The notes beneath the pieces were generated by a model that saw only the letters and a list, made by a program, of their open reading frames with translations, was not told the origin of the DNA and made no database searches. The translations under genes and the position numbers were made by a program. A stretch of DNA of 64,000 nucleotides from Bacteroides ovatus (GTDB taxonomy: Bacteria; Bacteroidota; Bacteroidia; Bacteroidales; Bacteroidaceae): NCBI RefSeq assembly GCF_001314995.1, contig NZ_CP012938.1:2728001-2792000 (forward strand). The letters are read 5' to 3'. Positions 2,981 to 36,646 of this stretch are shown here, piece by piece. Each line of letters begins with the position of its first letter. Positions within the stretch are counted from its first letter, which is position 1.

Positions 2981-2982
2981 AC

Positions 2983-3021
2983 AAAAAAAAGCGATTTATT
3001 CGTTCAGAACAAATCGCTTTT
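2983..3021 (-). terminator. Rho-independent terminator of rpsF-rpsR-rplI
   Basis: AAAAGCGATTT (2987-2997) pairs with AAATCGCTTTT (3011-3021) around a 13-base loop. On the minus strand the stem is followed by a run of T. It lies just after the rplI stop. Confidence 0.8.
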
Positions 3022-5825: not shown

Positions 5826-7382
5826 TCAATTATTTTTTAATAAAGGTAATGCAATAATAAATTTAGTTCCCACGTTCAGGTCGCTTTCCGCCCGGATGGT
5901 TCCCTTATGATCCAATATAATTTTTCTCACATAAGCCAATCCCAGTCCAAAGCCCTTCACATCGTGCAGATTACCCGTATGTACACGATAGAACTTTTCA
6001 AATATCTTTTTCAGGTTCTCTTTTTTGATACCGATACCATTATCCTGTATCGAAATCATCAGTTTACCCGACTCATTCCACGTTCTCACTTTCAGTTCCA
6101 GATCCTCTTCCGGTTTCTTATATTTCACCGCGTTATCCATCAGATTAAAGATTACATTCGTGATATGCATCTCGTCTGCAAATATAACAGGATCGGTGGC
6201 CTCAAGGTTCGATGTTATCTTACCATTATACCGTTCCACTTTCAGCGCAAAGGTATTGACAACTCCTGCTATTAATTCATTCGCATCAATCTCCTTCATC
6301 TTCAAAGTGGCCTTCTGACGTTCGAACATCGACATCTGGAGCACCTTTTCCACCTGGAAGCGCAAGCGCTTGGTTTCATCATTAATCACTCCCGATATAT
6401 GCTGGAACATCTGTGGAGATTTTCCCACCGCGGGATCTTTCAACATCTGGGCTGCTAATGAAATGGTAGATATCGGTGTTTTAAATTCGTGCGTCATATT
6501 ATTGATAAAGTCATTCTTCATTTCCGTCAGTTTCTTTTGCCGGAATACGATATAAATCGTAAAGATGAATGTCACTAACAATACCAGTGTAAATATCAGC
6601 GACGGAATCATGAAACTGATGGAGTCAAAGATATAATCTTTCTTCCCCGGAAAGTGCACTTTCAAGATACTCATTTTGGCAGGCGGGTCATTCTTGAACA
6701 ATGCCTGCTGATAAGCGTCTTCACTTCCCTTTGCCTCATAATCCGCACAACGGTAGACTTCCCTTCCGTCTTTGTCGATCACCGTAAAGTGATAAGGCAA
6801 ATCTATACTATTATTATATAAGCTCGATTTCAGATAGTCATCCAGTTCTTTAAACCGTACTCTGTCTCCAATCGACTTGTCACTTCCCCGGTAAATCATC
6901 TGCCAGGCCACTTCATCGAGTAATGCCCGTTGATACATATACCGATTCTTGATGGCTTCCACTAATGAACGCGAAGTTTCCGGAATGGTCTTTGTCCCCC
7001 TGTAAGGAGAAATCATAGCCTTCGGAAGCTCGGAGGGCTTAGTGGTCATCACTTTCAGCTCAAAATCCGAATATACTTTTCCATCCTTAGACTTCACTGT
7101 AAACCGCTGCGTTTGCTGAATCAAGTTGTCTTGTTGTATGGAAGCATTATTCGCAATCAGCGCTTTTCTTTCTGCTTCTGAAATATCTTCGATCAACCAA
7201 CGTCTGGTCTCTGCATATTCCACATCCTTGGAAACCTGATCCAGGCTATTGCGTACAGCCGAATCAAACTGTTCCTTACGGGTTTTCATCATTTCCTCTA
7301 TATAACTTACCTGCAAATACAGCAAGCTAAGGAAGGAAAGCCCCATTACAATACCTAATATCCAAATTGTTGACTTCTTCAT
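5826..7382 (-). CDS. rprX: RprX sensor histidine kinase
   Basis: A 518-residue membrane kinase. Span 1 is at residues 6-25, a periplasmic sensor domain of about 230 residues follows, span 2 is at 257-280, then the H-box MTHEFKTPIS with phospho-acceptor His298. The ATPase domain has the N-box NVIFNLMDNAVKY, G1 DNGIGI and G2 GFGLGLAYV. It should autophosphorylate and pass phosphate to RprY, encoded one base downstream. A -7 box TAAATTTG at 7522-7529 gives a leader of about 130 bases. The sensed signal is not evident. Confidence 0.92.
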   Translation of the reverse strand: MKKSTIWILGIVMGLSFLSLLYLQVSYIEEMMKTRKEQFDSAVRNSLDQVSKDVEYAETRRWLIEDISEAERKALIANNASIQQDNLIQQTQRFTVKSKDGKVYSDFELKVMTTKPSELPKAMISPYRGTKTIPETSRSLVEAIKNRYMYQRALLDEVAWQMIYRGSDKSIGDRVRFKELDDYLKSSLYNNSIDLPYHFTVIDKDGREVYRCADYEAKGSEDAYQQALFKNDPPAKMSILKVHFPGKKDYIFDSISFMIPSLIFTLVLLVTFIFTIYIVFRQKKLTEMKNDFINNMTHEFKTPISTISLAAQMLKDPAVGKSPQMFQHISGVINDETKRLRFQVEKVLQMSMFERQKATLKMKEIDANELIAGVVNTFALKVERYNGKITSNLEATDPVIFADEMHITNVIFNLMDNAVKYKKPEEDLELKVRTWNESGKLMISIQDNGIGIKKENLKKIFEKFYRVHTGNLHDVKGFGLGLAYVRKIILDHKGTIRAESDLNVGTKFIIALPLLKNN

Positions 7383-9870: not shown

Positions 9871-10417
9871 AATATATAAGATTTTAGTAATTACTCAGTA
9901 TGTTTCTCACATACCATTAATTTTGTGATGCGCAAATTAGGGATTAATTGGGGGAAAAGCAACACTTATGGCAGTGTTACTAAACAATGTTATGTAACAC
10001 ATCTTTAACATGAACATTTTCGAAACGGGTTAAAAATTATTTTCGCATGGCTATAAACTAATTTCATAGTTGCAACGAGTAATCCGGCACGATGTTATTT
10101 TTAGTTGTTTTCCTTTCATACAATAGTTTCCCCGTTGCCTAATCAGTTTTCGTTTGACTTAAGTCAAGCGATAGTTTAACTTAAGTCATTCTATCGTTTG
10201 ACTTAAGTCAAACGAAAACCCGGCTACAAGTTCGAATCTTATTTATAAAAGAAAAGATCTTAAATTCAGCATTGCAGGAAATTATCTTCTACTAATCGAT
10301 GGGGAATTATCTATTTAGCGTATTCCTACCCCACTATAAATAATTTCCGTCAACTGCTTTTTTGATATATCTAATAATAGTCTTACTTTTACACCCACAA
10401 ACCCAAACAGCATAGCT
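9871..10417. other. 547-base intergenic region between divergent EF-G2 and hemW genes
   Basis: No credible gene on either strand. It contains the nested palindrome cluster at 10146-10219, a second imperfect nested stem (GGAAATTAT at 10277-10285 with ATAATTTCC at 10340-10348, enclosing GGAAT/ATTCC), a weak -7-like TACTTTTA at 10384-10391 ahead of hemW, and a weak TAATTTG on the minus strand near 9937 ahead of the EF-G gene. Confidence 0.6.
10146..10219. repeat. Nested palindrome cluster with three ACTTAAGT cores
   Basis: Three copies of a TTGACTTAAGTCAA-like palindrome occur at 10154-10167, about 10178-10188 (shortened) and 10198-10211. The third extends to the perfect 20-bp palindrome CGTTTGACTTAAGTCAAACG (10195-10214). 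Copies one and three with flanks form a 29-bp inverted repeat (10146-10174 against 10191-10219, one mismatch) whose 16-base loop holds copy two. As DNA this could bind a dimeric regulator of Crp/Fnr type; as RNA it would fold into a long hairpin in either transcript. Confidence 0.85.
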
Positions 10418-22207: not shown

Positions 22208-22879
22208 ATGATCATGAAACATTTAAAAATCAAAATCATGTCAATAGCCTTTATGGCAGTAGCAACTTCTTCTATGGCACAAAGTTTGAATAAGATGAAC
22301 TGGCTGAACGAGCCTCAACAGTGGGAAATAAAAGATGGCAAAACCTTAGTGATGGATGTTCCTGCAAAAACAGACTTTTGGAGGATTTCTCATTATGGAT
22401 TCACAGTGGACGACGGACCTTTCTATTATGCGACTTATGGTGGAGAATTTGAAGCCAAAGTAAAGATAACCGGCAACTATGTCACCACCTTTGACCAAAT
22501 GGGATTAATGCTGCGCATCGACCATGAGAACTGGATAAAAGCAGGTGTGGAATACGTTGATGGCAAACAGAATGTAAGTGCCGTGGTTACGCATCGGACT
22601 AGTGACTGGAGTGTAGTACAATTGCCGGATGCTCCCCGCTCTATATGGATAAAAGCAGTCCGTCGCCTGGATGCAGTAGAAATATTTTTCTCACGTGATG
22701 ATAAAGAATATATTATGATGCGCACTTGTTGGTTACAAGATAATTGTCCTGTCATGGTAGGATTAATGGGAGCTTGTCCGGACGGGAAAGGGTTCACCGC
22801 TACATTCGAAGAATTTAAAGTGACTCCATTAGCCGATCAACGAAGACTGGAATGGGCAAAAAGGCAAATAAACAAATAA
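22208..22879 (+). CDS. DUF1349 concanavalin-like secreted protein
   Basis: A 223-residue protein with a signal peptide ending near SSMAQS; MKHLKIKIMS at 22214 is an equally likely start. The mature chain is a beta-sandwich of the DUF1349 family: LNEPQQWEIKDGKTLVMDVPAKTDFW, DQMGLMLRIDHENWIKAGVEYVDGKQNVSAVVTH, and the C-terminal GLMGACPDGKGFTATFEEFKV. Members are related to the yeast Regulation of Enolase 1 protein and to laminin-G/concanavalin folds, suggesting carbohydrate binding. No catalytic role is established. It is divergent from, and shares a promoter region with, the LuxR regulator. Confidence 0.82.
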   Translation: MIMKHLKIKIMSIAFMAVATSSMAQSLNKMNWLNEPQQWEIKDGKTLVMDVPAKTDFWRISHYGFTVDDGPFYYATYGGEFEAKVKITGNYVTTFDQMGLMLRIDHENWIKAGVEYVDGKQNVSAVVTHRTSDWSVVQLPDAPRSIWIKAVRRLDAVEIFFSRDDKEYIMMRTCWLQDNCPVMVGLMGACPDGKGFTATFEEFKVTPLADQRRLEWAKRQINK

Positions 22880-23466
22880 AAATCAGTCCTGATGCTATTT
22901 ATTTAAATAGAGAGAAAGCTCTTTATAATATAAATATGGTAGTATATCTTACTTTAAATGTTCTATTTTTAATATGATGAGTATAAATAGCATCACACGG
23001 ATTTCCTCTTCCAGCAGTTCTGTTGTATAAAATAATGCAAGAATATACAGTTCCCGAGGAGTTTTTTACATAAAAACAGTCAAAAGATACACTATAATAA
23101 ACTTATTGACAATCGTTTCTTTAAAAGGAGTAACCAGTTCCTTTTAAAGGAACGATTCATTGATCGGTGAGAAACACTTTATTCCTTTAAAAGGAGCATA
23201 TAAAACTTTATTTTAAGTGCTATCCCAGAGCTAACCTACACCTGAAACAGCCAACACTCCACATATCAATTTGAGACAAAACAAAGGCAAGTTCTATACA
23301 TCTATTCTATAAAAGACGCAGACTAAAACAAATTATTCCAAAACACAATCGATTTATTTCTTTTCTAAATTCGAAAACAGCAAATCCGTCTCATTTTCAA
23401 CTCATGCCTAAATATATCCTGCATATATAGAATTATACAACGATAAAATATACGTTTTTTCATATA
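22880..23466. other. 587-base intergenic region with palindrome cluster
   Basis: AT-rich, no credible gene on either strand. It separates the DUF1349 gene from the 3' end of the convergent winged-helix gene. The only clear structure is the palindrome cluster at 23111-23195. Confidence 0.55.
23111..23195. repeat. Palindrome cluster with three CCTTTAAAAGG-like cores
   Basis: AATCGTTTCTTTAAAAGGA (23111-23129) is an inverted repeat of TCCTTTTAAAGGAACGATT (23139-23157), one mismatch, nine-base loop. A third unit TCCTTTAAAAGGA follows at 23183-23195. Each unit is itself nearly palindromic. The layout resembles the cluster at 10146-10219 with another core. Confidence 0.75.
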
Positions 23467-24522
23467 TTATCGCCAAAACCGTATATACTTATCTTTCTCA
23501 CGATCCAACGCACCTTCATCGACACAATCACCCAACCGGAACCATGAATGTTCTATCAATGAGCCTCTCTTTTTAACAGACTTATCCCAGTTTCCTATCA
23601 CTTGTCCTTCATGAAGAACAATCGGATAAAACAGACCATTATTGGTAAATGCTTTCGAGTAATGCTCTTTAGGCAAAACGTCTGTCCGGTCTTTATAACC
23701 AAGCAAATATTCATCATAAGAAGGAAGAAGATGCAAACTGCCGGTAACTTTTCCACGAGTCCGGCAATCTTCATGAATATACCATGTCTGTCCATTCCAT
23801 TCTTCTGCCGTTAATTCCGAATCAATCAAATAAATAGCTTGACGTGCATCTGTAATAGGCAGCCCCGACCACCAGACAAAATCTTGCAAAACAGCAGGAG
23901 CATGACTACGAAAATAGCTTCTAGCCAAACGAGCCAAAGATTCATCTTTGGTCAATTCCGGCATCGGCGGAACACGCTCTTCCAAAAGCGCATACGTACA
24001 TTTACTTCCTTTATCTTCCCCACTACATACAATCCCCACCTGCTCCGCACGAGCCATAAAGCGGGTCATACGATGATTATCCGCTACAATCCCCGAACGG
24101 TTAAAATGCTCGGCAATCTCCTGCCTCGTCAGGCTTTTCTTCCCACAAAGAATTTTCTCCAACAGATTATGACTTTTCGTATAGAGCTCTTCAGAAATTT
24201 CCAAGTCATGCCCCTTCGCATAAGACTCATTAGCAGATATAATACGCCCGGCGGAAAGTTTCAACATCCACCGGATATCTTCTGCTGCTACGAGATGCCA
24301 TGTCGGACGCATTACATGAGTCCGCAGGATTTCACCATCACGGAGCGCTTTTTCCACAGTTTGAATCGTTGCTGACTTCAAACGCATTCCTACTGCCCAT
24401 TTCACCATGGAATAATTCTGTGCCTGCATAGCTCCCATCCAGGACACAAGTTCCTTGGGTTGAAAGAAAAGAGGACTTAATAACTGTTGGTTGAGTAAAC
24501 GTATATTCGGTATTTTCATCAT
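23467..24522 (-). CDS. Winged-helix DNA-binding domain protein (AlkZ/YcaQ-like superfamily)
   Basis: A 351-residue protein of the HTH_42 family. Signature parts are RLLNQQL near the start, the WMGAMQAQNY motif (about residues 29-38), RTHVMRPTWHLVAAEDIRWML (about 87-107), and a central helix-turn-helix around SLTRQEIAEHF. The family includes AlkZ and YcaQ, monofunctional DNA glycosylases that unhook interstrand crosslinks using a QxQ motif; here MQAQNY supplies Q-A-Q at about residues 34-36. A DNA-repair role is therefore plausible. The family also holds proteins without known activity. It is a single-gene unit facing the palindrome-rich gap. Confidence 0.78.
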   Translation of the reverse strand: MMKIPNIRLLNQQLLSPLFFQPKELVSWMGAMQAQNYSMVKWAVGMRLKSATIQTVEKALRDGEILRTHVMRPTWHLVAAEDIRWMLKLSAGRIISANESYAKGHDLEISEELYTKSHNLLEKILCGKKSLTRQEIAEHFNRSGIVADNHRMTRFMARAEQVGIVCSGEDKGSKCTYALLEERVPPMPELTKDESLARLARSYFRSHAPAVLQDFVWWSGLPITDARQAIYLIDSELTAEEWNGQTWYIHEDCRTRGKVTGSLHLLPSYDEYLLGYKDRTDVLPKEHYSKAFTNNGLFYPIVLHEGQVIGNWDKSVKKRGSLIEHSWFRLGDCVDEGALDREKDKYIRFWR

Positions 24523-24557
24523 ACTTATTTATAAAAGAAAAAACAGTTGTTCTTTGA

Positions 24558-25793
24558 TTAAATGACACGAGTAATGGAATGTAACAAAACAGAAGACAAG
24601 AAGTCTCTAATATAAATATGTTCTATCCCTTCATAAGTATTTTCAAACATTTTTTCTCCGGACACTACCACTTTCGGATAATTATCTTTAATCTTCAATA
24701 AATTCCCGAATTCTCTTTCAATAGTTTCCTGTTTAGAAAGTTCAAGAGAGACTTGCACATAGAGAATCTCTCCATTCCGTTTACAGACAAAATCTATTTC
24801 TTCCGTACCCAATGTCCCGATTTTTACATCATATCCACTATATACCAAATGATTATAAACCAAGTTCTCCAAACGCATCGCTCTGTCCTGTGGCTTGTAC
24901 CCCGTAATCACATTACGAATCCCCATATTCTCAAAATAATACTTCTCCCCTCTTTCGAATAATTTCTTTCCGGCAATATCATACCTTCCTACCCTATGTA
25001 CAATAAAAGCATCCGATAATGCCATCGCATACTCACTCACAACATAAGGAGAAATATCCACTTTCTGACTTTTCAGAAAATCACTAATACTCTTGCTGGA
25101 AAATAAGTTGCCAATGTTACCTGCCAAGAACGAAACTAGTTGTTCCAAAAAGACCGTATTCCTTATATTCTTTCTCTGAATCACATCTTTTAATATAATG
25201 GTAGAGTAAATGCTCCTCAAATACTCCATAACAACAGGTTCTTCCATCGGCAAATGTATCAGATAAGGCAATCCTCCATAATGAATATATTTCTCCAATG
25301 ACGCATCCGTATTCTCCAGTTCATGGAAATCCAGAAATTCAATATACGACAAACTATAAACCACAAATTCAACATACCGACCTCCCAATTCATTCGCTAA
25401 ATCACTGGAAAATATCTCTGAATTACTGCCTGTCACATATATATCATTATTATCATCCAATGCCAACGAACGGATAGCCAACCTGAAATCTTGTATTTCC
25501 TGTATTTCATCGACAAAAATATAGTTCATTCTATCATCTACCGATTTTGAAAGAATATAATCATTCAGTTCTTTATAAGTCTTTATATCTATGAAATTGA
25601 CATCTTCCTTATTTATATAGATAATATTCGCATCACTCTCTTCTTTCCGTATCAACTCCATGAGTTGATACAAAATAAAGCTTTTACCGACACGACGATG
25701 ACCGACCATCACTTTTACCAATGTTTTCCTCATGAAAGGTCTTATGCGGTCAACATAAGTGTTTCTTTGTTTAATTATGCGAGGTATTTTCAT
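24558..25793 (-). CDS. AAA ATPase with C-terminal DUF4143 domain
   Basis: A 411-residue protein from ATG at 25793 (MKIPRIIKQR); a TTG nine codons upstream lies inside a repeat and near the predicted transcription start and is rejected. Walker A is GHRRVGKS at residues 31-38; Walker B is YIFVDEIQEI with Asp95; sensor GSNSEIF follows. The C-terminal half has the DUF4143 restriction-fold domain ending in GTEEIDFVCKRNGEILYVQVSLEL, with the E-x-D-F and Q/E-x-x catalytic-like pattern of a PD-(D/E)XK fold. Such ATPases are common and accessory in Bacteroidetes and their role is unknown. Three operator-like repeats surround its promoter. Confidence 0.88.
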   Translation of the reverse strand: MKIPRIIKQRNTYVDRIRPFMRKTLVKVMVGHRRVGKSFILYQLMELIRKEESDANIIYINKEDVNFIDIKTYKELNDYILSKSVDDRMNYIFVDEIQEIQDFRLAIRSLALDDNNDIYVTGSNSEIFSSDLANELGGRYVEFVVYSLSYIEFLDFHELENTDASLEKYIHYGGLPYLIHLPMEEPVVMEYLRSIYSTIILKDVIQRKNIRNTVFLEQLVSFLAGNIGNLFSSKSISDFLKSQKVDISPYVVSEYAMALSDAFIVHRVGRYDIAGKKLFERGEKYYFENMGIRNVITGYKPQDRAMRLENLVYNHLVYSGYDVKIGTLGTEEIDFVCKRNGEILYVQVSLELSKQETIEREFGNLLKIKDNYPKVVVSGEKMFENTYEGIEHIYIRDFLSSVLLHSITRVI

Positions 25794-25807
25794 TCTACTT
25801 CTTTTTA

Positions 25808-25902
25808 AATACGATTGCAATACATCACAAATATAGCATTTATTTTAAATACAATTGTAATTTCTTGAGATTTTATCCTCTACTTCAAATACGATTGTAA
25901 TT
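25808..25902. repeat. Three AAATACRATTGYAAT repeats at a 40-bp period
   Basis: AAATACGATTGCAAT at 25808-25822, AAATACAATTGTAAT at 25848-25862 and AAATACGATTGTAAT at 25888-25902, exactly 40 bp apart. The cores are palindromic (TACAATTGTA). They lie around the -7 box at 25828-25835, so they look like operator sites: the first over the start site, the second over the -33 region, the third further upstream. Confidence 0.8.
25828..25835 (-). promoter_or_regulatory. -7 box of the AAA/DUF4143 gene
   Basis: The minus strand reads TATATTTG, exact TAnnTTTG, between the first and second 15-bp repeats. The start should be near 25821, about 28 bases before the ATG. Confidence 0.7.
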
Positions 25903-25998
25903 TTCCCATTCTAAATTTTCTATTGTTTTTCTGACTTTATAACTGCATATATACCAATTTATGTCTATTTTTGTCATCTCAAACCAAAGAAAATAGAA

Positions 25999-27231
25999 AT
26001 GATGCTCTATAAACTCATCCCTCCTTCAGTAGTAACAGCAACTATCCAGTTGCCGGCTTCTAAAAGTATCAGTAATCGTGCATTAATCATCAATGCGCTG
26101 GGCAAAGGTATTTATCCTCCTGAAAACCTGTCCGATTGTGACGATACACAGGTGATGATAAAAGCTCTCACCGAAGAGAAAGAGACGATTGACATCATGG
26201 CTGCGGGCACTGCTATGCGTTTCCTTACCGCCTATTTAAGTGTGACCCCGGGGGAACGGACAATCACAGGAACAGCCCGTATGCAGCAACGCCCGATACA
26301 GATATTAGTCAATGCGCTTCGTGAGTTAGGAGCTGAAATAGAGTATACCCGCAATGAAGGATATCCTCCCCTCCGCATCAAAGGTGCAGAATTGAAAGGA
26401 AACGAAATAACACTGAAAGGAAATGTCAGTTCCCAATATATATCTGCTCTATTGATGATAGGTCCGGCACTCAAAGACGGTTTGACTTTGCATTTAAGCG
26501 GTGAGATAATTTCCCGTCCTTATATCAATCTTACATTGCAACTGATGCAGGACTTTGGAGCCAAAGCTGCATGGACTTCTCCCAGTAGCATTTCCGTTGC
26601 TCCACAACTCTATCAGAGCATTCCTTTCAAAGTGGAAAATGACTGGAGCGCAGCTTCCTATTGGTATCAGATTGCCGCCTTATCTCCCAAAGCAGAAATT
26701 GAATTATTGGGGTTGTTTCATAACAGTTATCAGGGAGATAGCCGGGGAGCAGAAGTTTTCTCACGCTTAGGTATAACTACCGAATTTACATCGCAAGGTG
26801 TGAAACTGAAAAAAACAGGCAAAGCGCCGGAAAGACTGGAAGAAGACTTTATCGACATTCCGGATTTGGCACAGACATTCGTTGTTACCTGTGCCTTGCT
26901 GAATATCCCTTTCCGTTTCACCGGATTACAAAGCCTGAAAATAAAAGAGACTGACCGTATTGCCGCTCTGCGAGCCGAGCTTAAAAAGCTGGGATATGTG
27001 ATCGAGGAAGAAAATGACAGTATATTAATGTGGAATGGCGAACGATGTGAACCGGAAGAAACTCCGGTGATTGAAACCTATGAAGACCATCGGATGGCAA
27101 TGGCATTTGCACCGGCAATTATCCGCCATCCCAATTTACTTATTGCCGATCCGCAAGTCGTTACCAAATCATATCCCGGATATTGGGAAGATTTGAAACA
27201 GGCCGGATTTCAGGTTATAAACGAAGGCTAA
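25999..27231 (+). CDS. aroA: 3-phosphoshikimate 1-carboxyvinyltransferase (EPSP synthase)
   Basis: A 410-residue enzyme of the shikimate pathway that joins shikimate-3-phosphate and phosphoenolpyruvate to give EPSP, a step to chorismate and aromatic amino acids. Visible motifs: LPASKSISNRALI near residues 14-26, AGTAMRFLTA near residues 75-84, IKETDRIAALRAELKKLG near residues 315-332, and DHRMAMAFAPA near residue 365. Start may be the first or second Met (MML). It is slightly shorter than the E. coli enzyme (427). The Crp/Fnr gene begins 12 bases after its stop, suggesting shared transcription. Confidence 0.95.
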   Translation: MMLYKLIPPSVVTATIQLPASKSISNRALIINALGKGIYPPENLSDCDDTQVMIKALTEEKETIDIMAAGTAMRFLTAYLSVTPGERTITGTARMQQRPIQILVNALRELGAEIEYTRNEGYPPLRIKGAELKGNEITLKGNVSSQYISALLMIGPALKDGLTLHLSGEIISRPYINLTLQLMQDFGAKAAWTSPSSISVAPQLYQSIPFKVENDWSAASYWYQIAALSPKAEIELLGLFHNSYQGDSRGAEVFSRLGITTEFTSQGVKLKKTGKAPERLEEDFIDIPDLAQTFVVTCALLNIPFRFTGLQSLKIKETDRIAALRAELKKLGYVIEEENDSILMWNGERCEPEETPVIETYEDHRMAMAFAPAIIRHPNLLIADPQVVTKSYPGYWEDLKQAGFQVINEG

Positions 27232-27243
27232 TTTTCATACGCT

Positions 27244-27813
27244 GTGGAAGATTTCAACAAATATACTTCCCACATCAACTACTCCCCTATTGTAGATTTT
27301 GTATTGCAACAGGGGAAGCAGACCTATTATAAGAAAGGAGACTACTTTTCCCGCCAAGGAGAAGTATGCAAAACAATGGGATTCGTCAGTTCCGGTTCTT
27401 TCCGGTACTGTTGCACCAACAGTGTAGGCGAGAGCAGCATTGTAGGCTATACTTTCGATCATTCTTTTGTTGGCAACTATCCGGCTTTTCAGTTACAGGA
27501 TAAATCAAATGTAGATATACAAGCCTTGTGTGACTGCTCGGTATACGTAATCAATTATCAGCAAATGGCAGACTTCTACGATACCAACGACGCTCACCAA
27601 AAGTTAGGACGTCGCATCGCAGAAACGTTATTGTGGGAAGTCTACGACCGGATGATTTCAATGTACAGCCTGACACCGGAAGAACGCTATCTTGAAATTA
27701 TCAACCGTTGTCCCGACTTACTGAAACTGATAACTTTAAAAGAACTGGCTTCCTATCTTCTGATTCGTCCCGAAACATTAAGTCGTATCCGAAGAAAAGT
27801 CGTACAAAAATAA
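27244..27813 (+). CDS. Crp/Fnr-family transcriptional regulator
   Basis: A 189-residue protein starting at GTG 27244. The N-terminal cyclic-nucleotide-binding-like barrel includes YYKKGDYFSRQGEVCKTMGFVSSGSFRY and SIVGYTFDHSFVGNYPAF. The C-terminal DNA-binding part ends ITLKELASYLLIRPETLSRIRRK, a Crp-type helix-turn-helix. No FNR-like cysteine cluster is present at the N-terminus, so oxygen sensing through an iron-sulfur cluster is not supported. A perfect TTGAT-N4-ATCAA box begins four bases after its stop and lies at an activator position for the SDR gene downstream, its likely target. Confidence 0.88.
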   Translation: MEDFNKYTSHINYSPIVDFVLQQGKQTYYKKGDYFSRQGEVCKTMGFVSSGSFRYCCTNSVGESSIVGYTFDHSFVGNYPAFQLQDKSNVDIQALCDCSVYVINYQQMADFYDTNDAHQKLGRRIAETLLWEVYDRMISMYSLTPEERYLEIINRCPDLLKLITLKELASYLLIRPETLSRIRRKVVQK

Positions 27814-27816
27814 ATT

Positions 27817-27832
27817 CTTGATTTCAATCAAG
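27817..27832. promoter_or_regulatory. Crp/Fnr operator TTGAT-N4-ATCAA upstream of the SDR gene
   Basis: CTTGATTTCAATCAAG is a perfect palindrome with the classical half-sites. Its centre (27824.5) is about 43 bases upstream of the start predicted from the -7 box at 27854-27861, close to the class II activator position (-41.5). Confidence 0.75.
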
Positions 27833-27853
27833 AGTTTATTTATTCTCTACCCT

Positions 27854-27861
27854 TACTTTTG
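27854..27861 (+). promoter_or_regulatory. -7 box of the SDR gene
   Basis: TACTTTTGC, an exact TAnnTTTG box, 26 bases before the ATG at 27888. Confidence 0.7.
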
Positions 27862-27887
27862 CGGGCAAACAAAGTATATTGTATTTC

Positions 27888-28604
27888 ATGAAAAAAATTA
27901 TAATTATAGGTGCAACTTCCGGCATCGGTCGCGGATTGGCAGAAGTCTATTCTCAAGAAGATTATCTTATCGGCATTACCGGTCGCAGGGAAAATCTATT
28001 AGAAGAGGTATGCGCCCGGGACAAAGACAAACTATTCTATCAAGTGTGCGACATCACCGATACACAAGCTACCATTTCATCCCTCGAAACTCTCACTCAA
28101 AAAATGGGTGGAATGGATATATTGATTATCTGTGCCGGGACCGGAGAACTAAACCCCGAACTCTCCTACCAATTGGAAGAACCTACCTTACTAACGAACG
28201 TGATAGGATTCACCAACATCGCAGACTGGGGTTTCCGATATTTCGAACAGCAAAAAAGCGGGCATCTGGTTACTATTTCCTCTGTTGGAGGTACACGCGG
28301 CAGTGGCATCGCTCCCGCCTACAATGCGTCGAAAGCCTATCAAATCAACTATATGGAAGGATTACGACAAAAAGCAACTAAATCTCCTTATTCTATTTAC
28401 ACTACCGATATTCGTCCCGGATTTGTAGACACCGCTATGGCAAAAGGAGAAGGATTGTTTTGGGTTACTCCCGTTGATAAAGCTGTGAAACAAATTAAAA
28501 AGGCTATTTCTAAAAAGAAAAAAGTAGCTTTCATTTCCCAAAGATGGAGATATGTAACTATCCTGTTTCGTCTGTTGCCATCTGCTATTTATTGCCGGAT
28601 GTAA
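27888..28604 (+). CDS. Short-chain dehydrogenase/reductase
   Basis: A 238-residue SDR from ATG 27888 (MKKIIIIGATSG). The nucleotide motif is GATSGIGRG near residues 8-16, the structural motif is ICAGTG (a variant of NNAG), and the catalytic residues appear as Ser in TISSVGG and Y-x-x-x-K in YNASKAYQ. The residue pattern GRRE after strand two suggests NADP preference. The C-terminus carries a basic KKAISKKKKVAFIS stretch. Substrate unknown. A Crp/Fnr gene and a matching operator lie directly upstream, so the enzyme is probably induced by that regulator. Confidence 0.88.
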   Translation: MKKIIIIGATSGIGRGLAEVYSQEDYLIGITGRRENLLEEVCARDKDKLFYQVCDITDTQATISSLETLTQKMGGMDILIICAGTGELNPELSYQLEEPTLLTNVIGFTNIADWGFRYFEQQKSGHLVTISSVGGTRGSGIAPAYNASKAYQINYMEGLRQKATKSPYSIYTTDIRPGFVDTAMAKGEGLFWVTPVDKAVKQIKKAISKKKKVAFISQRWRYVTILFRLLPSAIYCRM

Positions 28605-28823
28605 TGATAGATACTCCATAGCCAACACATATTTGTCTAAGTAAATCTAATAAAAAAACACCTGCCCCAACTGTTTATACAGATATTGGTATCTACCAAA
28701 TTCTAGTTATGTATATAAGTCTGTACGGGAATCATATTAATGATAATAGCTAACTCACAAATAAACAGCTCTCTTACAATTGGAGGACACTTTTAGGGTT
28801 CAGTAATCAATGATGAAAAAATA

Positions 28824-29158
28824 AGTTCTTTCAGAACTAGGATGGTTTATAAAATTAGAATTAACGGCACAAATATATAATATATTTTAATACATAGCAT
28901 GTATTTTCAAAAATAATATCAAATTCTCATTCATTTTTTCTTTTTAAGAATACCCAAAGCCGTATTTTATCTTCATATTGAAATGAAACGACTTGTTTAT
29001 TTCATCATCCTTGTTATTTCATCTAACACAAACAGGTACGAAATAGATATAAAATGGGTATAAAACAAGTAGAAAAGATCGCTTAAAAGATGACTCTTTT
29101 TTTGAATTTAAGGCTTTGAATCCAACGTTTTACGCACGGAATAAGTTCTGAAAGAACT
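28824..29158. repeat. Candidate invertible promoter segment bounded by AGTTC-N5-GAACT repeats
   Basis: The left repeat AGTTC-TTTCA-GAACT (28824-28838) and right repeat AGTTC-TGAAA-GAACT (29144-29158) have mutually reverse-complementary spacers. With flanks, the match extends to 19 of 19 bases in inverted orientation (28820-28838 against 29144-29162) but only 16 of 19 in direct orientation. The enclosed AT-rich segment lies 47 bases before a susC ATG. This is the motif I recall for class II invertible regions tied to SusC/SusD paralogues in B. fragilis. The invertase is not in this window. Confidence 0.75.
28870..28877 (-). promoter_or_regulatory. -7 box inside the invertible segment, pointing away from susC
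   Basis: The minus strand reads TATATTTG, exact TAnnTTTG; a second match TATTTTTG lies at 28908-28915. No exact box was found on the plus strand of the segment. After inversion the first box would occupy 29105-29112 and face susC. No good -33 is seen at 19-21 bases, and AT-rich DNA yields such boxes by chance. Confidence 0.4.
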
Positions 29159-29205
29159 TATTAAAAGTAATTCCGGATTCTAGGAAAAACTCTAAATTCA
29201 ATGCT

Positions 29206-32200
29206 ATGTTAAAACAACTAAAGTCAGTTAGTATGTTGTTGTTCCTACTGACAATGTCAGTAGAAGCAGCTTATCCGGAAATAGGTGAAAGCACTCTAAA
29301 AGTTTCCGTTGTACAACAGGGTACTACTTGTAAGGGTGTAGTAAAAGATGCAGCAGGTGAAACCATCATCGGTGCATCCGTCGTAGCCAAAGGTACGACG
29401 AACGGTACAATCACCGGAATCAACGGTGACTTCTCTTTAAACAATGTAAAAACCGGAGATATTATTGTAGTCTCTTTTGTTGGTTATCAGACTCAAGAAA
29501 TCAAATTCACAGGACAATCATTGAATATCATCCTTAAAGACAATACACAAACATTGGATGAAGTTGTTGTGGTTGCTTTTGGTACACAAAAGAAAGTGAA
29601 TGTAACAGGATCTGTATCTACGGTAGGAGCAAAAGAAATTTCGGCACGTCCCGTTAACTCTACCATAGAAGCTTTGCAAGGTATGGTTCCGGGGATGAAT
29701 ATCTCTACTGGTGATGGTGGTGGCTCCTTAGGTTCAGACAAAAAATTCAATATTCGTGGTGTTGGAACAATTGGAGCTGGTTCAAAGGTAGAACCATTGG
29801 TGCTCATTGACGGTATGGAGGGAGACATGAACGCTATCAATCCACAGGACATTGAGAATATTTCTGTACTGAAAGATGCAGCCGCTTCCTCCATTTATGG
29901 CTCGCGGGCACCAGGTGGAGTCATCCTGATTACAACAAAGAAAGGTAAGTCGGGAAAAACGGTAGTTAACTATAATAACAACTTCCGTTTTGTATCTCCC
30001 TTGAATATGCCTGAAATGGCAGATTCATACAATTTTGCTCTGGCAGTCAATGACCAGTTAACTAATGGTGGACAGACTCCCATGTATAGCGCCACCAAAC
30101 TTCAACAAATTCTGGATTTTCAAGCAGGAAAAAGCACACAATATATGTGGCCGACCGATGCGGGAAGATGGAATTCATTCGATGATCCCCAACGGCAAGA
30201 CGTGATGCCTACCGGCAATACCGACTGGTTAAAAACGTTATTTGGTAATAGCTTTACCCACGAGCATTCATTGAGCGTAAATGGTGGAACGGATAAAATA
30301 CAATATTATCTTTCTGCGAATTATCTGGACCAAGGAGGTCTCTTGAAGTTTGGAGATGATAACAAACAACGCTACTCCTTTACTGCAAAAATCAATGCGG
30401 ACTTAACCAAATGGTTGAAAATAAGTTATAGTATGCGTTTTAACCGGACGGATTATGAAGCTCCTTCATTTGCCGGAGGCGATATCAAAAGTAATGTATT
30501 CTATTTCGATGTATGTCGCTACTGGCCTGTCATTCCGGTAGTAGACCCAAACGGATTCTATACTGTCGAATCCAAGATTTACCAATTAACAGAAGGAGGC
30601 CGATATAAATCACAAAAAGACGTGATGGCACACCAGCTTGCTTTCATCGTGGAACCCATCAAAGACTGGAAAATTAACGTAGAATTGAACTACCGTTCCA
30701 ACTATAATTTCGACCATACCGATTATCAAACCGTTTATGGTTATGATGTGAGTAAAAATCCCTACATTATTGCCAATCAAACTTCCAGCGTTACAGAATA
30801 TGCTTATAAGAGTAATTTCTTCAATCCGAACATCTTTACCGAATACGGCAAATCATTAGAAAGCGGGCACAACTTTAAAGTGATGCTGGGTTTTCAGAGC
30901 GAACTATTCAAACAACGTGATATTACCGCTTCCCAAGACGGTATCATGTCGGAAGTGGCTACCTTGAACACCACGCAGACAAATGCACAAAACAGAGGAG
31001 GGTACTCCGAATGGGCTACAGCCGGCTTCTTCGGACGTGTTAATTACGACTACAAAGGACGTTATCTGGCTGAAGTAAATATGAGATATGACGGCACTTC
31101 ACGTTTCCTTCGAGATAACCGCTGGAATCTATTCCCATCATTCTCCTTAGGATGGAACATGGCCCGTGAAGCATTTTTTGAAGATCTGACCGATTTAATC
31201 AGCACATTCAAGATACGTGGTTCATGGGGTGAATTGGGCAACCAAAACACAGATAACTGGTATCCATTCTATCGAACTATTGATATTAACAAAGACCAAT
31301 GGGGCAATTACGCACTAGGCAGTTGGCTGGTAAATGGCGTAAAACCAAATATTTCCAAAGAATCTGCGCTGGTATCTTCCTTACTGACATGGGAAAAGAC
31401 GCAAACACTGGATTTAGGTTTCGACTTATCTATGCTCAACAATCGTTTGAATGTAACATTCGACTATTTCCAGCGTAAATCTAAAAACATGGTAGGCCCC
31501 GCCCCCGAACTACCCAACCTCTTAGGCATTGCCGTTCCCAAAGTAAACAACCTCGATATGACTTCCAAAGGTTGGGAAATACAGGTGAACTGGCGCGACC
31601 AGATACGCGACTTTAAGTATGGAGTTACCTTATCTTTGTCAGACAATCAAGTGGTTATTGATAAATACCCCAATCCGTCAAACACAATTTTAGATAAAGA
31701 CAATAATAATACGTATTATGCAGGTGCTCACGTAGGTGATATATGGGGATTCCAAACAATCGGCATCGCAAAGACCGATCAAGAGATGAAAGATCATTTG
31801 GCCGGTATGCCCAATGGCGCACAGGATGTACTCGGTTCCGGCTGGGGAGCAGGTGACATCATGTATGCGGATTTGAACGGTGACGGCCAGATCAGCAGAG
31901 GTAACAAAACACTGGCTGATCATGGTGATTTGAAGAAAATAGGCAACAGTACACCACGCTACAACTTTGGTTTGAATCTGGATGCCGCCTGGAAAGGGTT
32001 CGACCTTAAATTATTTTTCCAAGGAACGATGAAACGTGATTATATGCCGGGGAGTGGTTCTACAATGTTCTGGGGAGCAGTAGGCTACTGGCAAACCAAC
32101 TTTTTCAAACCTCATCTGGACTATTTCCGCGGAGAAGATACGACTAATCCGCTAGGAGCTAACCTGGGTGGTTATTATCCGCGTCCTCTCGAGAATGATA

Positions 32201-32466
32201 GAAACCGTAATCCACAGACCCGATATTTGCAAAATGCGGCTTACTGCCGTCTGAAAAACGTTACTTTAGGTTATACATTACCTAAATCTTTGACAGAGAA
32301 ATTCTGCGTAAACAATCTGCGATTCTTTGTTTCAGCAGAGAATTTATTTACTATTACCAGTCTGGCCGATACGTTTGACCCCGAAACTGTTGGCATCGGC
32401 AACTGGGACGGATGTACCTATCCGCTATCCAAGACTGTATCATTCGGTTTAAGTGCAACATTTTAA
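29206..32466 (+). CDS. SusC-family TonB-dependent outer-membrane transporter
   Basis: A 1086-residue RagA/SusC-type receptor. Order: signal peptide (about 1-22), carboxypeptidase-regulatory-like beta domain (about 42-113, GVVKDAAGETIIGASVVAKGT), TonB box DEVVVVAFG at about 118-126, plug domain with IRGVGTIGAGSKVEPLVLIDG and SVLKDAAASSIYGSRAPGGVILITTKKG, then the barrel ending SFGLSATF. It has no STN domain, so it is not tied to an ECF sigma factor. It should import a glycan or peptide together with the SusD partner 13 bases downstream. No glycosidase, sulfatase or lyase is encoded nearby, so the ligand cannot be inferred. Confidence 0.95.
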   Translation: MLKQLKSVSMLLFLLTMSVEAAYPEIGESTLKVSVVQQGTTCKGVVKDAAGETIIGASVVAKGTTNGTITGINGDFSLNNVKTGDIIVVSFVGYQTQEIKFTGQSLNIILKDNTQTLDEVVVVAFGTQKKVNVTGSVSTVGAKEISARPVNSTIEALQGMVPGMNISTGDGGGSLGSDKKFNIRGVGTIGAGSKVEPLVLIDGMEGDMNAINPQDIENISVLKDAAASSIYGSRAPGGVILITTKKGKSGKTVVNYNNNFRFVSPLNMPEMADSYNFALAVNDQLTNGGQTPMYSATKLQQILDFQAGKSTQYMWPTDAGRWNSFDDPQRQDVMPTGNTDWLKTLFGNSFTHEHSLSVNGGTDKIQYYLSANYLDQGGLLKFGDDNKQRYSFTAKINADLTKWLKISYSMRFNRTDYEAPSFAGGDIKSNVFYFDVCRYWPVIPVVDPNGFYTVESKIYQLTEGGRYKSQKDVMAHQLAFIVEPIKDWKINVELNYRSNYNFDHTDYQTVYGYDVSKNPYIIANQTSSVTEYAYKSNFFNPNIFTEYGKSLESGHNFKVMLGFQSELFKQRDITASQDGIMSEVATLNTTQTNAQNRGGYSEWATAGFFGRVNYDYKGRYLAEVNMRYDGTSRFLRDNRWNLFPSFSLGWNMAREAFFEDLTDLISTFKIRGSWGELGNQNTDNWYPFYRTIDINKDQWGNYALGSWLVNGVKPNISKESALVSSLLTWEKTQTLDLGFDLSMLNNRLNVTFDYFQRKSKNMVGPAPELPNLLGIAVPKVNNLDMTSKGWEIQVNWRDQIRDFKYGVTLSLSDNQVVIDKYPNPSNTILDKDNNNTYYAGAHVGDIWGFQTIGIAKTDQEMKDHLAGMPNGAQDVLGSGWGAGDIMYADLNGDGQISRGNKTLADHGDLKKIGNSTPRYNFGLNLDAAWKGFDLKLFFQGTMKRDYMPGSGSTMFWGAVGYWQTNFFKPHLDYFRGEDTTNPLGANLGGYYPRPLENDRNRNPQTRYLQNAAYCRLKNVTLGYTLPKSLTEKFCVNNLRFFVSAENLFTITSLADTFDPETVGIGNWDGCTYPLSKTVSFGLSATF

Positions 32467-32479
32467 ATGATAAACGATT

Positions 32480-34492
32480 ATGAAAAAACATATTAAACTT
32501 TTGACAATAGGAACATTGCTATTGGGCGGACTGACCGGTTGCAATGATTTTCTCGACAGGGAACCACTGGATAAAGTAATTCCCGAAAAATATTTTGCAT
32601 CCGAAAGTGATCTGGCTGCATACACAATCAATGCTTACCCATTTGAAACAGTGACCGATGCGTATGGCATCAATTTCTTCGGCAAAGATAATGATACTGA
32701 TAACCAAGCCAGTGGTGACTCACCGGCCTTCTGGATACCCGGGCAAAAGAAGGTGCCGTCAGGTGAAGGCGAATGGGACTGGAGTAAAATACGAACCTGC
32801 AACTATTTCTTTGATAATACTTTACCGAAATTCGAAGCCGGCACTATTACCGGCAATCAGGATAATGTGAAGCATTATATCGGAGAAATGTACGTGATCC
32901 GGGCATACAATTATTATAAATTACTGGTTTCTTTAGGAGATCTGCCTATTATCACTACTGCATTGCCCGACATAGAAGAGACCTTGGTGGAATCCAGCAA
33001 GCGCCAGCCGCGTAATAAGGTGGCACGCTTCATTCTGGACGATTTGCAAAAAGCAACAGAATTGTTGCTTGATAAAAGTCCCGGTGGCAAGAATCGCATC
33101 AGCAAAAACGTAGCTCACTTGCTACGTGCACGCGTTGCCCTCTTCGAAGCAACTTGGGAAAAGTATCACAAAGGAACAGCTTTTGTACCCGGTGGAAAAG
33201 GATGGCCGGGTAATCCCGCAGATGTAAGCGGTTTTAATAGTGATGCAGAAGTGGCTTATTTTCTTGATGAAGCAATGAAGTCATCAAAAGTGGTAGGCGA
33301 CTATATCGTCGGAAAACTGGCAGACAATACCGATACCCCCGAAGGTATGAACGCCAGTCTGGTTTCCATCAATCCTTACTACACCATGTTCTGCGATGAA
33401 AACATGGAAGGATATGATGAAATACTGATGTGGAAACTGTTCAAGGAAGGATTGGTAACCAGCAACTTGCAAATGGAGTTGGCACGCAATGGCGGTGGTT
33501 CCGGATGGACTCGTGGCATGGTCAATTCATTCCTGATGCGCAATGGGCTTCCCATCTATGCAGCCGGTTCCGATTATAATCCCGATTGGGAGAAAGAAGG
33601 AGTAAATTCCACTTTACAGAATCGTGATTCACGCATTGTTATCTTTACCAAAAAGCCGGGTGATGCCAACACTGAAAATAAAGGTGATGTGAATTATTAC
33701 GGTGATGACGGAACTCCCAGTTATTGCTCAATCCGTTTCATTTATGGCGATAAAGGAAGTTTGGCAACAACCGGATTCATCATCAAAAAAGGCAAACACT
33801 ACTCCAGTCACATGGCAAATGACCATAGTGCGGGAACATCAGGTGGTATTGTTTTCCGTGCGGCAGAAGCCATGTTGATTTACATGGAAGCTTCGTATGA
33901 AAAAAATGGTAGAATCGACGGAACAGCCGACGGATATTGGAAAGCTTTACGCCGACGCGCCAAAGTGGACGAAGACTATAATAAGACAATCGCTGCAACA
34001 CAGATGAGCGAAGAGGCTAAAGGCGATTTCGGTGCTTATTCTCATGGCCAATTGATAGACGCGACGTTATATAATATCCGCCGTGAACGCCGTAACGAAC
34101 TTTGTGCAGAAGCTTTGCGCTGGGAAGACTTGAAACGCTGGCGTGCATGCGACCAGTTGATATCCAAACCTTACCGTGTAGAAGGTATGCTATACTGGGG
34201 AAGCAACTATGAAACGCAACTGGCAGATTTATGTAAAGTAGATCCGGCAGAAGGTAATATGTCCTCACCTGATTTAAGTAAATATATTCTTCCATACGAA
34301 AAAATCACGAAGAATAATCTGATTGCCGGGCAGAAGGGATTCCTCTTTACACCTGCTCATTATCTGAATCCGATAGGTATGGCTGTATTTCGTCAGACAG
34401 CCTCGGATAAGAATGATTTTACAAGTTCAGTCGTTTATCAGAACCCGGGATGGAAGATTGAAGGCGACACCGGCGCACAACCTGTAGAATAA
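32480..34492 (+). CDS. SusD/RagB-family nutrient-binding lipoprotein
   Basis: A 670-residue lipoprotein with lipobox LTGC near residues 18-21 and the SusD N-terminus NDFLDREPLDKVIPEKYF. Helical repeats include YVIRAYNYYKLLVSLGDLPIITTALPD and ARFILDDLQKATELL, and the C-terminal family motif is IRRERRNELCAEALRWEDLKRWRA. It caps the SusC barrel on the cell surface and binds the ligand. It starts 13 bases after the SusC stop and is the last gene of the unit; the following region contains a nested stem-loop. Confidence 0.95.
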   Translation: MKKHIKLLTIGTLLLGGLTGCNDFLDREPLDKVIPEKYFASESDLAAYTINAYPFETVTDAYGINFFGKDNDTDNQASGDSPAFWIPGQKKVPSGEGEWDWSKIRTCNYFFDNTLPKFEAGTITGNQDNVKHYIGEMYVIRAYNYYKLLVSLGDLPIITTALPDIEETLVESSKRQPRNKVARFILDDLQKATELLLDKSPGGKNRISKNVAHLLRARVALFEATWEKYHKGTAFVPGGKGWPGNPADVSGFNSDAEVAYFLDEAMKSSKVVGDYIVGKLADNTDTPEGMNASLVSINPYYTMFCDENMEGYDEILMWKLFKEGLVTSNLQMELARNGGGSGWTRGMVNSFLMRNGLPIYAAGSDYNPDWEKEGVNSTLQNRDSRIVIFTKKPGDANTENKGDVNYYGDDGTPSYCSIRFIYGDKGSLATTGFIIKKGKHYSSHMANDHSAGTSGGIVFRAAEAMLIYMEASYEKNGRIDGTADGYWKALRRRAKVDEDYNKTIAATQMSEEAKGDFGAYSHGQLIDATLYNIRRERRNELCAEALRWEDLKRWRACDQLISKPYRVEGMLYWGSNYETQLADLCKVDPAEGNMSSPDLSKYILPYEKITKNNLIAGQKGFLFTPAHYLNPIGMAVFRQTASDKNDFTSSVVYQNPGWKIEGDTGAQPVE

Positions 34493-34838
34493 TAAAAAGA
34501 TAAAAGAACAACTCTTTGAGCTTACAAATATATCGACCTTAATATTATATATCTGTTATCTTTTTATTTTTATAAACTTCATTGTCTCGCTTCAGATTAG
34601 GTAGAACTGCGGTCAATCTAATCCTAAGTTAGGCAATGAAGTTTTACATTCGCATGAGTTCTCGTTCAACATCCTCTGCAGATGTATAAAAAGTCTTTGT
34701 GATTTCCATAGTCACCCAACAGAGATTATCCGCAAAATTCACTACATTTGTATTTGCTTATCTATCAACCGGGCTAATCAAGTATTACAATTACTACACT
34801 ATCCGATTGATAATATCTAACTTGAAACAAAGGTGTAT
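34493..34838. other. Intergenic region with nested stem-loop after susD
   Basis: AAACTTCATTG (34574-34584) pairs with CAATGAAGTTT (34634-34644). Inside, GATTAG (34595-34600) can pair with CTAATC (34618-34623), and CCTAAGTTAGG (34623-34633) is itself a palindrome that competes with it. It may be the 3' end structure of the SusC/SusD transcript, although the T-run is short. Otherwise no gene is seen. Confidence 0.5.
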
Positions 34839-35588
34839 ATGAATACTGACTTTACAAACTTAACAACAGAAAATCTTTCTAATGAGCATTTATGCTGCAT
34901 TATCCGCAGCAAAAAGTCTCATCCTGGTATTGAAGCAAAACGGCAATGGCTTTCCGACCGGCTGAATGAAGGCCATGTCTTTAGAAAGTTAAACGCCAAA
35001 GCTACTGTTTTTATTGAATATGCCCCTCTTGAAACAGCTTGGGTTCCCGTCATCGGCGACAACTATTATTATCTGTATTGTTTATGGGTGCTAGGTAGCC
35101 CCCGAGGAAACGGATATGGGAAAGCATTAATAGAGTACTGTATAGCTGATGCCAAAGAAAAAGGTAGATCCGGCATTTGTATGCTTGGGGCAAAAAAACA
35201 GAAGAGCTGGCTTTCCGACCAATCATTTGCAAAGAAATTTGGTTTTGAGGTGGTTGACACTACTGATAACGGATATGAATTGCTTGCTCTTTCTTTCGAC
35301 GGAACAGTACCGCAATTTGCGCCAAATGCCAAAAATCTGAAAATAGAAAGTGAGGAACTGACGATTTATTATGATATGCAATGCCCCTACATCTATAAAT
35401 ACATTGAAATGATCAAACAATATTGTGAAACAAATGATGTCCCTGTTTCTTTTATTCAAGTAGATACGCTACAGAAAGCAAAAGAGTTACCGTGTGTTTT
35501 TAATAATTTTGCAGTATTTTATAAAGGAAGTTTTGAGACTGTGAATTTGCCACCTATCGACTATTTAAAAAGAATACTCAAAAAATAA
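34839..35588 (+). CDS. GNAT acetyltransferase with YoaP-like C-terminal domain
   Basis: A 249-residue protein from ATG 34839 (MNTDFTNLTTENL). The GNAT core includes the acetyl-CoA loop as LGSPRGNGYGKALIEYCIADAKEKG (Q/R-x-x-G-x-G/A variant, about residues 87-111) and SFAKKFGFEVV. The remaining 80 residues match the YoaP-type extension: LTIYYDMQCPYIYKYIEMIKQYC then PVSFIQVDTLQKAKELPCVFNNFAVFY, with a thioredoxin-like pattern. Such proteins are found in many anaerobes, and the substrate is unknown. It stands alone and ends at a strong bidirectional terminator. Confidence 0.8.
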   Translation: MNTDFTNLTTENLSNEHLCCIIRSKKSHPGIEAKRQWLSDRLNEGHVFRKLNAKATVFIEYAPLETAWVPVIGDNYYYLYCLWVLGSPRGNGYGKALIEYCIADAKEKGRSGICMLGAKKQKSWLSDQSFAKKFGFEVVDTTDNGYELLALSFDGTVPQFAPNAKNLKIESEELTIYYDMQCPYIYKYIEMIKQYCETNDVPVSFIQVDTLQKAKELPCVFNNFAVFYKGSFETVNLPPIDYLKRILKK

Positions 35589-35590
35589 GA

Positions 35591-35634
35591 AATACAATCC
35601 TGACTTTTCCCATTAATTATCAGGATTGTATTTT
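35591..35634. terminator. Bidirectional terminator between the GNAT and M28 genes
   Basis: AATACAATCCTGA (35591-35603) pairs perfectly with TCAGGATTGTATT (35620-35632) over 13 bp with a 16-base loop. The flanking T-runs serve both convergent genes. Confidence 0.88.
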
Positions 35635-35644
35635 ATCTGCTTCA

Positions 35645-36646
35645 TTAAAAAGACTTCTCATTTGCCATCTTCCACATATTGAGAAAAGAGGCTTTAGTGA
35701 TTTCTACGACCTTATCCCAATTCAATCGGTCAGCATGATCGGAAGGCTGGTGATAATCAGGATGCCCGTCCGTATGATACCAGATGATCGGAATACCTAC
35801 TTTGGCAAACGAACCATTATCACTTCCTCCTATCGGATTTTCCCAGGCGCGGTAATCCGGTTCCAATTGCAAACCGTATTTTCTGATATCCTCTTTCAAC
35901 CAATCCTCAAAGACCGGATGGGCGGCTGTATAAAAATAAACGACCTGTTTAGGCTGTTGAGGTTTGTTATTACGGCCAATCATGTCAAAGTTCAGATAGC
36001 CTTTGATTTGAGATAGGAAAGGACAAGTTTGTACAAAATATTTAGAGCCAAGCAGTCCTTTTTCTTCTCCATCCCAAAAAGCAAAGATTACATTTCTTTC
36101 GGGTTGCTGTCCACTGGCTAAAAAGGCTCTTGCTATTTGCAGCACTGCCGATACACCGGAAGCATTATCGTCAGCACCATTGTATATTTGGTCGCCATCG
36201 AGTGCAGGATCAATACCTAAATGGTCGAAATGCGCCCCCACAATCACATATTCTTTGGTATTTTTACCAGGAATCATTCCCAATACATTCCTCATGGAAA
36301 GCTTCTGATGAACTTCCTGTTTCAGTTTAACTATGGAATCAGGATGCACTTCCAGACGTCCTTTTTTCTGACGTTCTTTACGGTAAGCATCAAAAGGCTG
36401 GAAATAGCTGTCAGCCAAAGGTGATACTCCCATCCATTGTAATAAAGAAGCAATATACTCCGAGGTCACACGTGAACCATGAAAACCTGCCTCACGGCCT
36501 TGCAATTCATCACTAGCCAAAAAGTTGATAGTAGCTTCGGCAGAGGAACGGTTGATACTCTGCAACCCTTTTTCTACGTTAGTTTGGGCAGATAACAACA
36601 ATGAAAAATTACACAAAAAAGAGAGAAGCAGAATGTTTTTCTTCAT
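35645..36646 (-). CDS. Secreted M28-family zinc peptidase
   Basis: A 333-residue exported enzyme with a signal peptide (MKKNILLLSFLCNFSLLLSAQ). The metal-binding residues of the M28 aminopeptidase fold are visible in order: His in GAHFDHLG, Asp in NGADDNASGVS, the Glu pair in WDGEEKGLLGS, Asp in LNFDMIGR, and the final His in IWYHTDGHPDYH. It probably removes N-terminal residues from peptides in the periplasm or outside the cell, with two zinc ions. It is a monocistronic gene on the minus strand, preceded at a distance by the broken LRR gene. Confidence 0.9.
   Translation of the reverse strand: MKKNILLLSFLCNFSLLLSAQTNVEKGLQSINRSSAEATINFLASDELQGREAGFHGSRVTSEYIASLLQWMGVSPLADSYFQPFDAYRKERQKKGRLEVHPDSIVKLKQEVHQKLSMRNVLGMIPGKNTKEYVIVGAHFDHLGIDPALDGDQIYNGADDNASGVSAVLQIARAFLASGQQPERNVIFAFWDGEEKGLLGSKYFVQTCPFLSQIKGYLNFDMIGRNNKPQQPKQVVYFYTAAHPVFEDWLKEDIRKYGLQLEPDYRAWENPIGGSDNGSFAKVGIPIIWYHTDGHPDYHQPSDHADRLNWDKVVEITKASFLNMWKMANEKSF

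Follow-up and report, generated by a model that had tools for sequence, protein, structure and literature searches.

A putative invertible promoter upstream of an orphan susC/susD pair in Bacteroides ovatus

The window (the whole 64-kb stretch of Bacteroides ovatus DNA analysed here) contains a susC gene closely followed by susD; the coordinates of the pair, of the elements upstream of it and of two related cassettes in the same genome are given in Table 1. It corresponds to G000:C1:2728001-2792000, on a chromosome of 6.47 Mb. Solved relatives of the two products are SusC/RagA proteins and SusD proteins, with names that are general only and point to no particular substrate. Among the 14 neighbouring reading frames that were scanned are, upstream, genes for a short-chain dehydrogenase, a cNMP-binding protein and an EPSP synthase and, downstream, genes for an acetyltransferase and an M28 peptidase. 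None of the 14 matches a carbohydrate-active enzyme family above the cut-off (a GH43_C2 match at 22208–22876 lies below it), and it is therefore fair to call the pair an orphan, as the original prediction did. A search of the literature returned no evidence for a role of the pair as a phage receptor.

Table 1. Features of the window locus and of two sister cassettes elsewhere in the genome.
Feature	Position	Strand	Description
Short-chain dehydrogenase gene, upstream	27879–28604	+	minus-strand promoter would currently read towards its 3' end
Left inverted repeat	28820–28838	+	19 bp; recombination site AGTTC-TTTCA-GAACT, AGTTCTTTCAGAACT, at 28824–28838
Invertible segment (putative)	28839–29143		305 bp between the two sites
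TATATTTG, Bacteroides-type -7 box	28870–28877	-	points away from susC; predicted OFF; box also on this strand in B. congonensis, G085 and G012
TATTTTTG, second exact -7-like box	28908–28915	-	no match in the same scan of the other three species
Right inverted repeat	29144–29162	-	19 bp; recombination site AGTTC-TGAAA-GAACT, AGTTCTGAAAGAACT, at 29144–29158; reverse complement of the left site
Leader, right site to susC start	29159–29205	+	conserved
susC, TonB-dependent receptor	29206–32466	+	1086 aa; Pfam Plug and barrel domains
susD, SusD/RagB lipoprotein	32480–34492	+	670 aa; Pfam SusD_RagB; begins 13 bp after susC
Sister cassette L121	752825/753115		305-bp promoter cassette before a 989-aa susC; TACTTTTG on the minus strand; predicted OFF
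Sister cassette L122	2428155/2428948		segment with promoter and first part of SusC (signal peptide, carboxypeptidase-like domain), directed away from a SusC body that lacks its head

Between the dehydrogenase gene and susC lie the only two matches to AGTTCN5GAACT in the 64-kb window, against 0.03 expected. Together with four outer bases beyond each site they form inverted repeats of the sequence AATAAGTTCTTTCAGAACT that pair at 19 of 19 bases, and they bound a segment of 335 bp (site edge to site edge) that ends 47 bases short of the susC ATG. On re-scanning, the two copies and their TTTCA and TGAAA spacers proved exact to the base as originally described, and re-measurement returned the same segment length and the same distance to susC. 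When the 601-bp upstream region was shuffled by mononucleotides, a perfect inverted repeat of 12 bp at a spacing of 100–520 bp arose in just 88 of 2000 shuffles; the real repeat has 19 bp. Over the whole genome the bare motif is not enriched (12 sites, 10 for the reversed pattern), and it is the pairing of the sites, rather than their number, that stands out: six of the 12 form three matched pairs, each of them at susC genes (the window, L121 and L122). The window cassette combines an inverted AGTTC-N5-GAACT pair, reverse-complementary spacers and a position upstream of susC/susD, features of the ‘class II’ (Tsr0667-type) invertible regions of SusC/SusD genes in B. fragilis, which are marked by this motif.

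Promoters of Bacteroides follow a -7/-33 consensus. A scan of both strands of the segment and leader for exact TAnnTTTG gave two boxes on the minus strand and none on the plus strand, which bears out the original prediction. Four species share the TATATTTG box as an exact match on the same strand; its best -33 match, at two of four bases, argues against a strong promoter. The TATTTTTG box is probably a chance match. Mirrored about the segment centre, TATATTTG falls at 29105–29112, facing susC, again at the coordinates first calculated. A plus-strand promoter that would make the present state ON was considered and rejected, as the plus strand has no exact box and a plus-strand box in G085 is absent from the other species. 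A sigma-70-type scan, which is not suited to Bacteroides, gave fewer matches than did shuffles, and no terminator-like site was found at 28400–29300.

The two sister cassettes differ in what they carry. The promoter cassette L121 and the head cassette L122 share the site, and the same site therefore appears to serve both promoter switches and head swaps; in L122 it translates as S-S-S-R-T in the frame of both SusC pieces. Both have the same orientation as in B. xylanisolvens XB1A and, for one cassette, as in G105. In L121 (7810–7860) the left site, unlike the other, forms the stem of an extended, terminator-like hairpin followed by a T run.

Inversion of a cassette of the window's class between two species is evident on alignment of an orthologous cassette before susC in B. 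congonensis (L337, genome G090) and in G081 (L338). With susC placed on the right in both, the outer flanks are collinear (83% over 215 and 71% over 255), and the promoter region between them matches in the reverse direction (80% over 65, E = 1.1e-11). The TATATTTG box, preceded by a full TTTG at a distance of 19 bases, faces susC in L338 and the opposite way in L337, and no long flanking repeat is found at either locus, only the sites. A second reversal is seen within the assembly of G104, two contigs of which carry a 13-kb susC cluster in opposite orientations between flanks that are 99.9–100% identical. The cluster is oriented alike in G080, G014 and contig C1 of G104 (B. fragilis-like), and only the 45-kb contig C2 of G104 is opposite; the ~0.4 kb of identical inverted flank would also allow this reversal to have arisen by homologous recombination.

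The survey of the genus covered 75 Bacteroides genomes of at least 95% completeness, into which 193 of 195 exact AAGTTCN5GAACTT sites entered. All 24 site pairs that lie 100–3000 bp apart have reverse-complementary spacers, a count in which orthologous cassettes of related species recur and are not independent; the figure for same-contig pairs more than 15 kb apart is 0 of 243. Each site is by itself a near-palindrome, a form common among operators, and the paired palindromes could in principle be operator pairs of a fixed promoter instead of recombination sites. Operators have no need of reverse-complementary spacers, yet every one of the 24 pairs has them and they co-change between species. 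The reversed interior of L338 relative to L337, and the location of the L122 and L299 sites within susC reading frames at the point where head and body part, likewise speak against operators, and we regard this explanation as highly improbable.

The window locus itself was found in five assemblies among 157 genomes searched. In XB1A (L317) the SusC protein is 100% identical, and over ~22.5–36.5 kb of the window (22501–36500) the identity is 95–100% in 500-bp steps, with three other loci at 94%, 91% and 82%; these figures mark the window genome as closely related to B. xylanisolvens. The high identity over this stretch perhaps reflects recent exchange between species. In B. congonensis (L044, G090), G085 and G012, respectively, identity to the window is 89%, 92% and 83% from left site to promoter (28820–28895), 70%, 71% and 66% in the middle of the segment, and 89%, 94% and 83% from the right site to the end of the leader (29140–29205). 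The left site is unchanged in XB1A and B. congonensis, has the spacer TTCCA in G085 and is degenerate in G012; the right site differs by one arm base in B. congonensis and has the spacer TGGAA in G085. The spacers of the two sites change together, from TTTCA/TGAAA in the window to TTCCA/TGGAA in G085 and TTTTA/TAAAA in G012, where the arms of both sites are damaged (AGTACTTTTAGTACT and AGTACTAAAAGAACT).

All five assemblies (the window, XB1A, B. congonensis, G085 and G012) have the locus in one and the same orientation, predicted OFF. This uniformity, the damage to the sites in G012 and, slightly, in B. congonensis, and the loss of the region elsewhere would suit a relic or nearly locked cassette that is held OFF, with susC silent or driven from outside the segment. 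In L118 and L119 (an uncultured Bacteroides and, for L119, B. acidifaciens; ~2977–3001) the cassette is gone together with all else between the dehydrogenase stop and susC codon 909, and the remainder of susC and susD are retained. G043 (L133, ~1544) has a collinear locus without the stretch that matches window 28605–35647 (cassette, susC/susD and acetyltransferase), a gap that amounts to presence/absence variation between species. Against a relic, both arms are intact and the spacers exactly matched in the window, XB1A and G085, despite the different spacer of G085; the box and leader are conserved; and the proposed enzyme described below is intact in G000, G123, G085, G090 and G012. The uniform orientation is itself not unexpected. 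Among the simple promoter cassettes retrieved, nine could be assigned a target gene; eight of these are OFF, a count in which one orthologous cassette appears three times, and one is ON. A related promoter, BT1927 of the B. thetaiotaomicron S-layer, is reported to be ON in ~1 of 1,000 cells (PMC12548429). We therefore consider a relic unlikely. A search of viral contigs for the inverted form of the window locus gave 0 matches, as did the uninverted control pattern, and is therefore uninformative.

The original prediction called for a tyrosine recombinase elsewhere in the genome, and a candidate gene was located 59 kb outside the window, at G000:C1:2850841-2852010. Its 390-aa product has arm-binding, SAM-like and integrase domains and is 74% identical to a recombinase at G080:C1:714226-715392, in a probable B. 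fragilis genome with 28 integrase-family matches; the latter gene would lie close to the expected place of gene 667 of strain YCH46. Homology and position make the 390-aa protein the probable orthologue of B. fragilis Tsr0667, presumably the enzyme linked to the AGTTC-N5-GAACT motif, and we favour it, with reasonable confidence, as the enzyme acting on the window cassette.

In all four genomes examined (L299–L302) the gene of this recombinase sits between susC genes, with matched near-sites (AGTCTTTGCAGAACT and AGTTCTGCAAAGACT) on either side. In L299 (G000:C1:2843000-2860000) the sites at 7177–7191 and 9884–9898 enclose the recombinase gene and one susC head; of the two flanking susC genes, one is complete, its head lying within the segment, and the other starts headless at the site, a layout common to L300, L301 and L302. 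The near-sites are weaker evidence than exact sites because two arm bases depart from AGTTC-N5-GAACT and because they overlap conserved susC coding sequence, which could explain part of their likeness. In XB1A (L320, 4776000–4793000; sites at 7066 and 9759) the alignment to L299 ends at the site edges with unrelated sequence beyond both, which would reflect either a rearrangement or an assembly break at inversion sites. Two genomes hold the candidate recombinase twice, in opposite directions (G104:C1:30221 and 5172673; G113:C1:1498992 and 1510258).

Across the 75 genomes the recombinase has a match in 59, intact in 51 and broken (stops or partial) in 8, and 16 are without a match. Of the 51 genomes with an intact enzyme, 19 contain matched pairs, as do one of the 8 with a broken one (G055) and none of the 16 (Fisher p = 0.002 for intact against the other 24, kinship uncorrected); the remaining 32 of the 51 have no exact pair. 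A narrower group of 19 genomes, with an enzyme of at least 74% identity, differs from those without a match in raw site excess at p = 0.02, a value given little weight because the cut was set once the data were known. Raw sites number 147 against 42 for the control pattern in the 51 genomes and 30 against 8 in the 16, and the raw excess does not differ between these two groups (Mann-Whitney p = 0.86). Raw site counts were accordingly rejected as a test of the enzyme; matched-pair counts alone separated the enzyme groups.

That the 390-aa enzyme is not singled out by raw site counts leaves some room for inversion by another tyrosine recombinase of the genome, for instance of the group L033, L036, L038 and L042. 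The genome has 37 integrase-family matches, profiled in part, and the L042 group is also present in site-rich genomes. All 20 genomes searched have relatives of this group, including ten that were selected because they lack sites; the group therefore does not follow the sites, and it was set aside as uninformative. The 390-aa enzyme, by contrast, is absent or broken in 24 genomes, one of them with a pair, and its gene lies within a susC cassette with near-sites. Another enzyme of the genome is accordingly a less likely agent, to which we give perhaps one chance in a few.

The reading best supported by the matched and co-changing sites, the conserved minus-strand box and leader, the sister site pairs, the cassette seen both ways between species and the candidate recombinase is the one first proposed, an invertible promoter that is OFF as assembled. 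We put at roughly 80% the probability that the locus is a two-state promoter switch in which a recombinase inverts the 335-bp segment. At the window locus, inversion, promoter activity and the identity of the enzyme are what we infer from these sequence comparisons. A tyrosine recombinase, proposed to be the 390-aa protein, would pair the two AGTTC-N5-GAACT sites, exchange strands within the 5-bp spacers and so invert the segment. The spacers would have to match for strand exchange, and they are identical when read in the inverted orientation. The segment would carry one conserved promoter, with its TATATTTG -7 box ~32 bp inside the left site. In the OFF state this promoter would transcribe leftwards, in the direction of the dehydrogenase gene and its 3' end; in the ON state transcription would cross the right site and the conserved stretch behind it into susC and susD, giving a transcript with a leader of roughly 85 nt.

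A broader and more tentative proposal, which we hold to be possible though on balance doubtful, is that one recombinase, encoded inside its own susC head-swap toggle, runs a susC network scattered over this genome, to which two promoter cassettes and one promoter-plus-head cassette belong besides the toggle itself. Spacers particular to each cassette (TTTCA, TATCA, TTGAT and TGCAA) would prevent cross-recombination, and the orientation of the enzyme gene would change with each flip of the toggle.

SusC/SusD pairs set nutrient uptake in gut Bacteroides and are exposed to immunity and phages. With a heritable coin-toss on one such pair, isolates of equal gene content may differ in their surface proteins, and an expression study of a single culture may miss the switched pair altogether. 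The matched-spacer rule, together with a candidate enzyme, would make switches of this kind simple to find in any Bacteroides genome and would point to one gene whose deletion should lock them.

The design is already known from B. fragilis, and the window provides a new example from a different species, whose genome also carries a head-swap sister. The window locus was not found in the literature searched and may well be contained in supplementary tables of genome-wide inversion surveys such as PMC10939037. Inversions at SusC/SusD loci of B. fragilis are credited to Tsr0667 (PMC4747536, PMC11852207); reported targets of the enzyme are three SusC/SusD clusters and a further nine regions (PMC4747536). 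The regions under Tsr0667 and the cassettes described here have in common susC/susD targets and a related tyrosine recombinase, which in G080 lies at the place expected for Tsr0667. They differ in the species, in the window cassette being a simple one-promoter cassette and in the assignment of the enzyme by homology and position. Pairs of AGTTC-N5-GAACT sites are a further common feature.

Other invertible promoters of Bacteroides offer further comparison. The BT1927 promoter of B. thetaiotaomicron (PMC12548429) is likewise short and invertible; it precedes the gene of a surface protein and is mostly OFF in cultured cells, but has a different target gene. Promoter inversion also governs surface structures in the capsule loci of B. 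fragilis (Mpi, PMC4747536) and B. xylanisolvens (PMC12118408), but there the repeat is unrelated, capsule genes are targeted and Mpi is a serine, not a tyrosine, recombinase. A capsule promoter inversion of the B. xylanisolvens type was rejected for the window, since the repeat is AATAAGTTCTTTCAGAACT and not the GTTACTTCTTAGGTAACGGA of the capsule promoter (PMC12118408) and the target is susC/susD rather than a capsule operon.

In the SusC/SusD intergenic shufflons of B. fragilis (region EE), inverted repeats over the starts of ragA/susC homologues are reported to place alternative genes behind one promoter (PMC5729914). L122, L340 and the recombinase's own locus have the same design, whereas the window cassette moves a promoter only and serves one susC/susD pair. 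In L340 (genome G001, 1183–1781) the susC head continues through the right site into a body and the left susC body is headless, one head being shared by two bodies.
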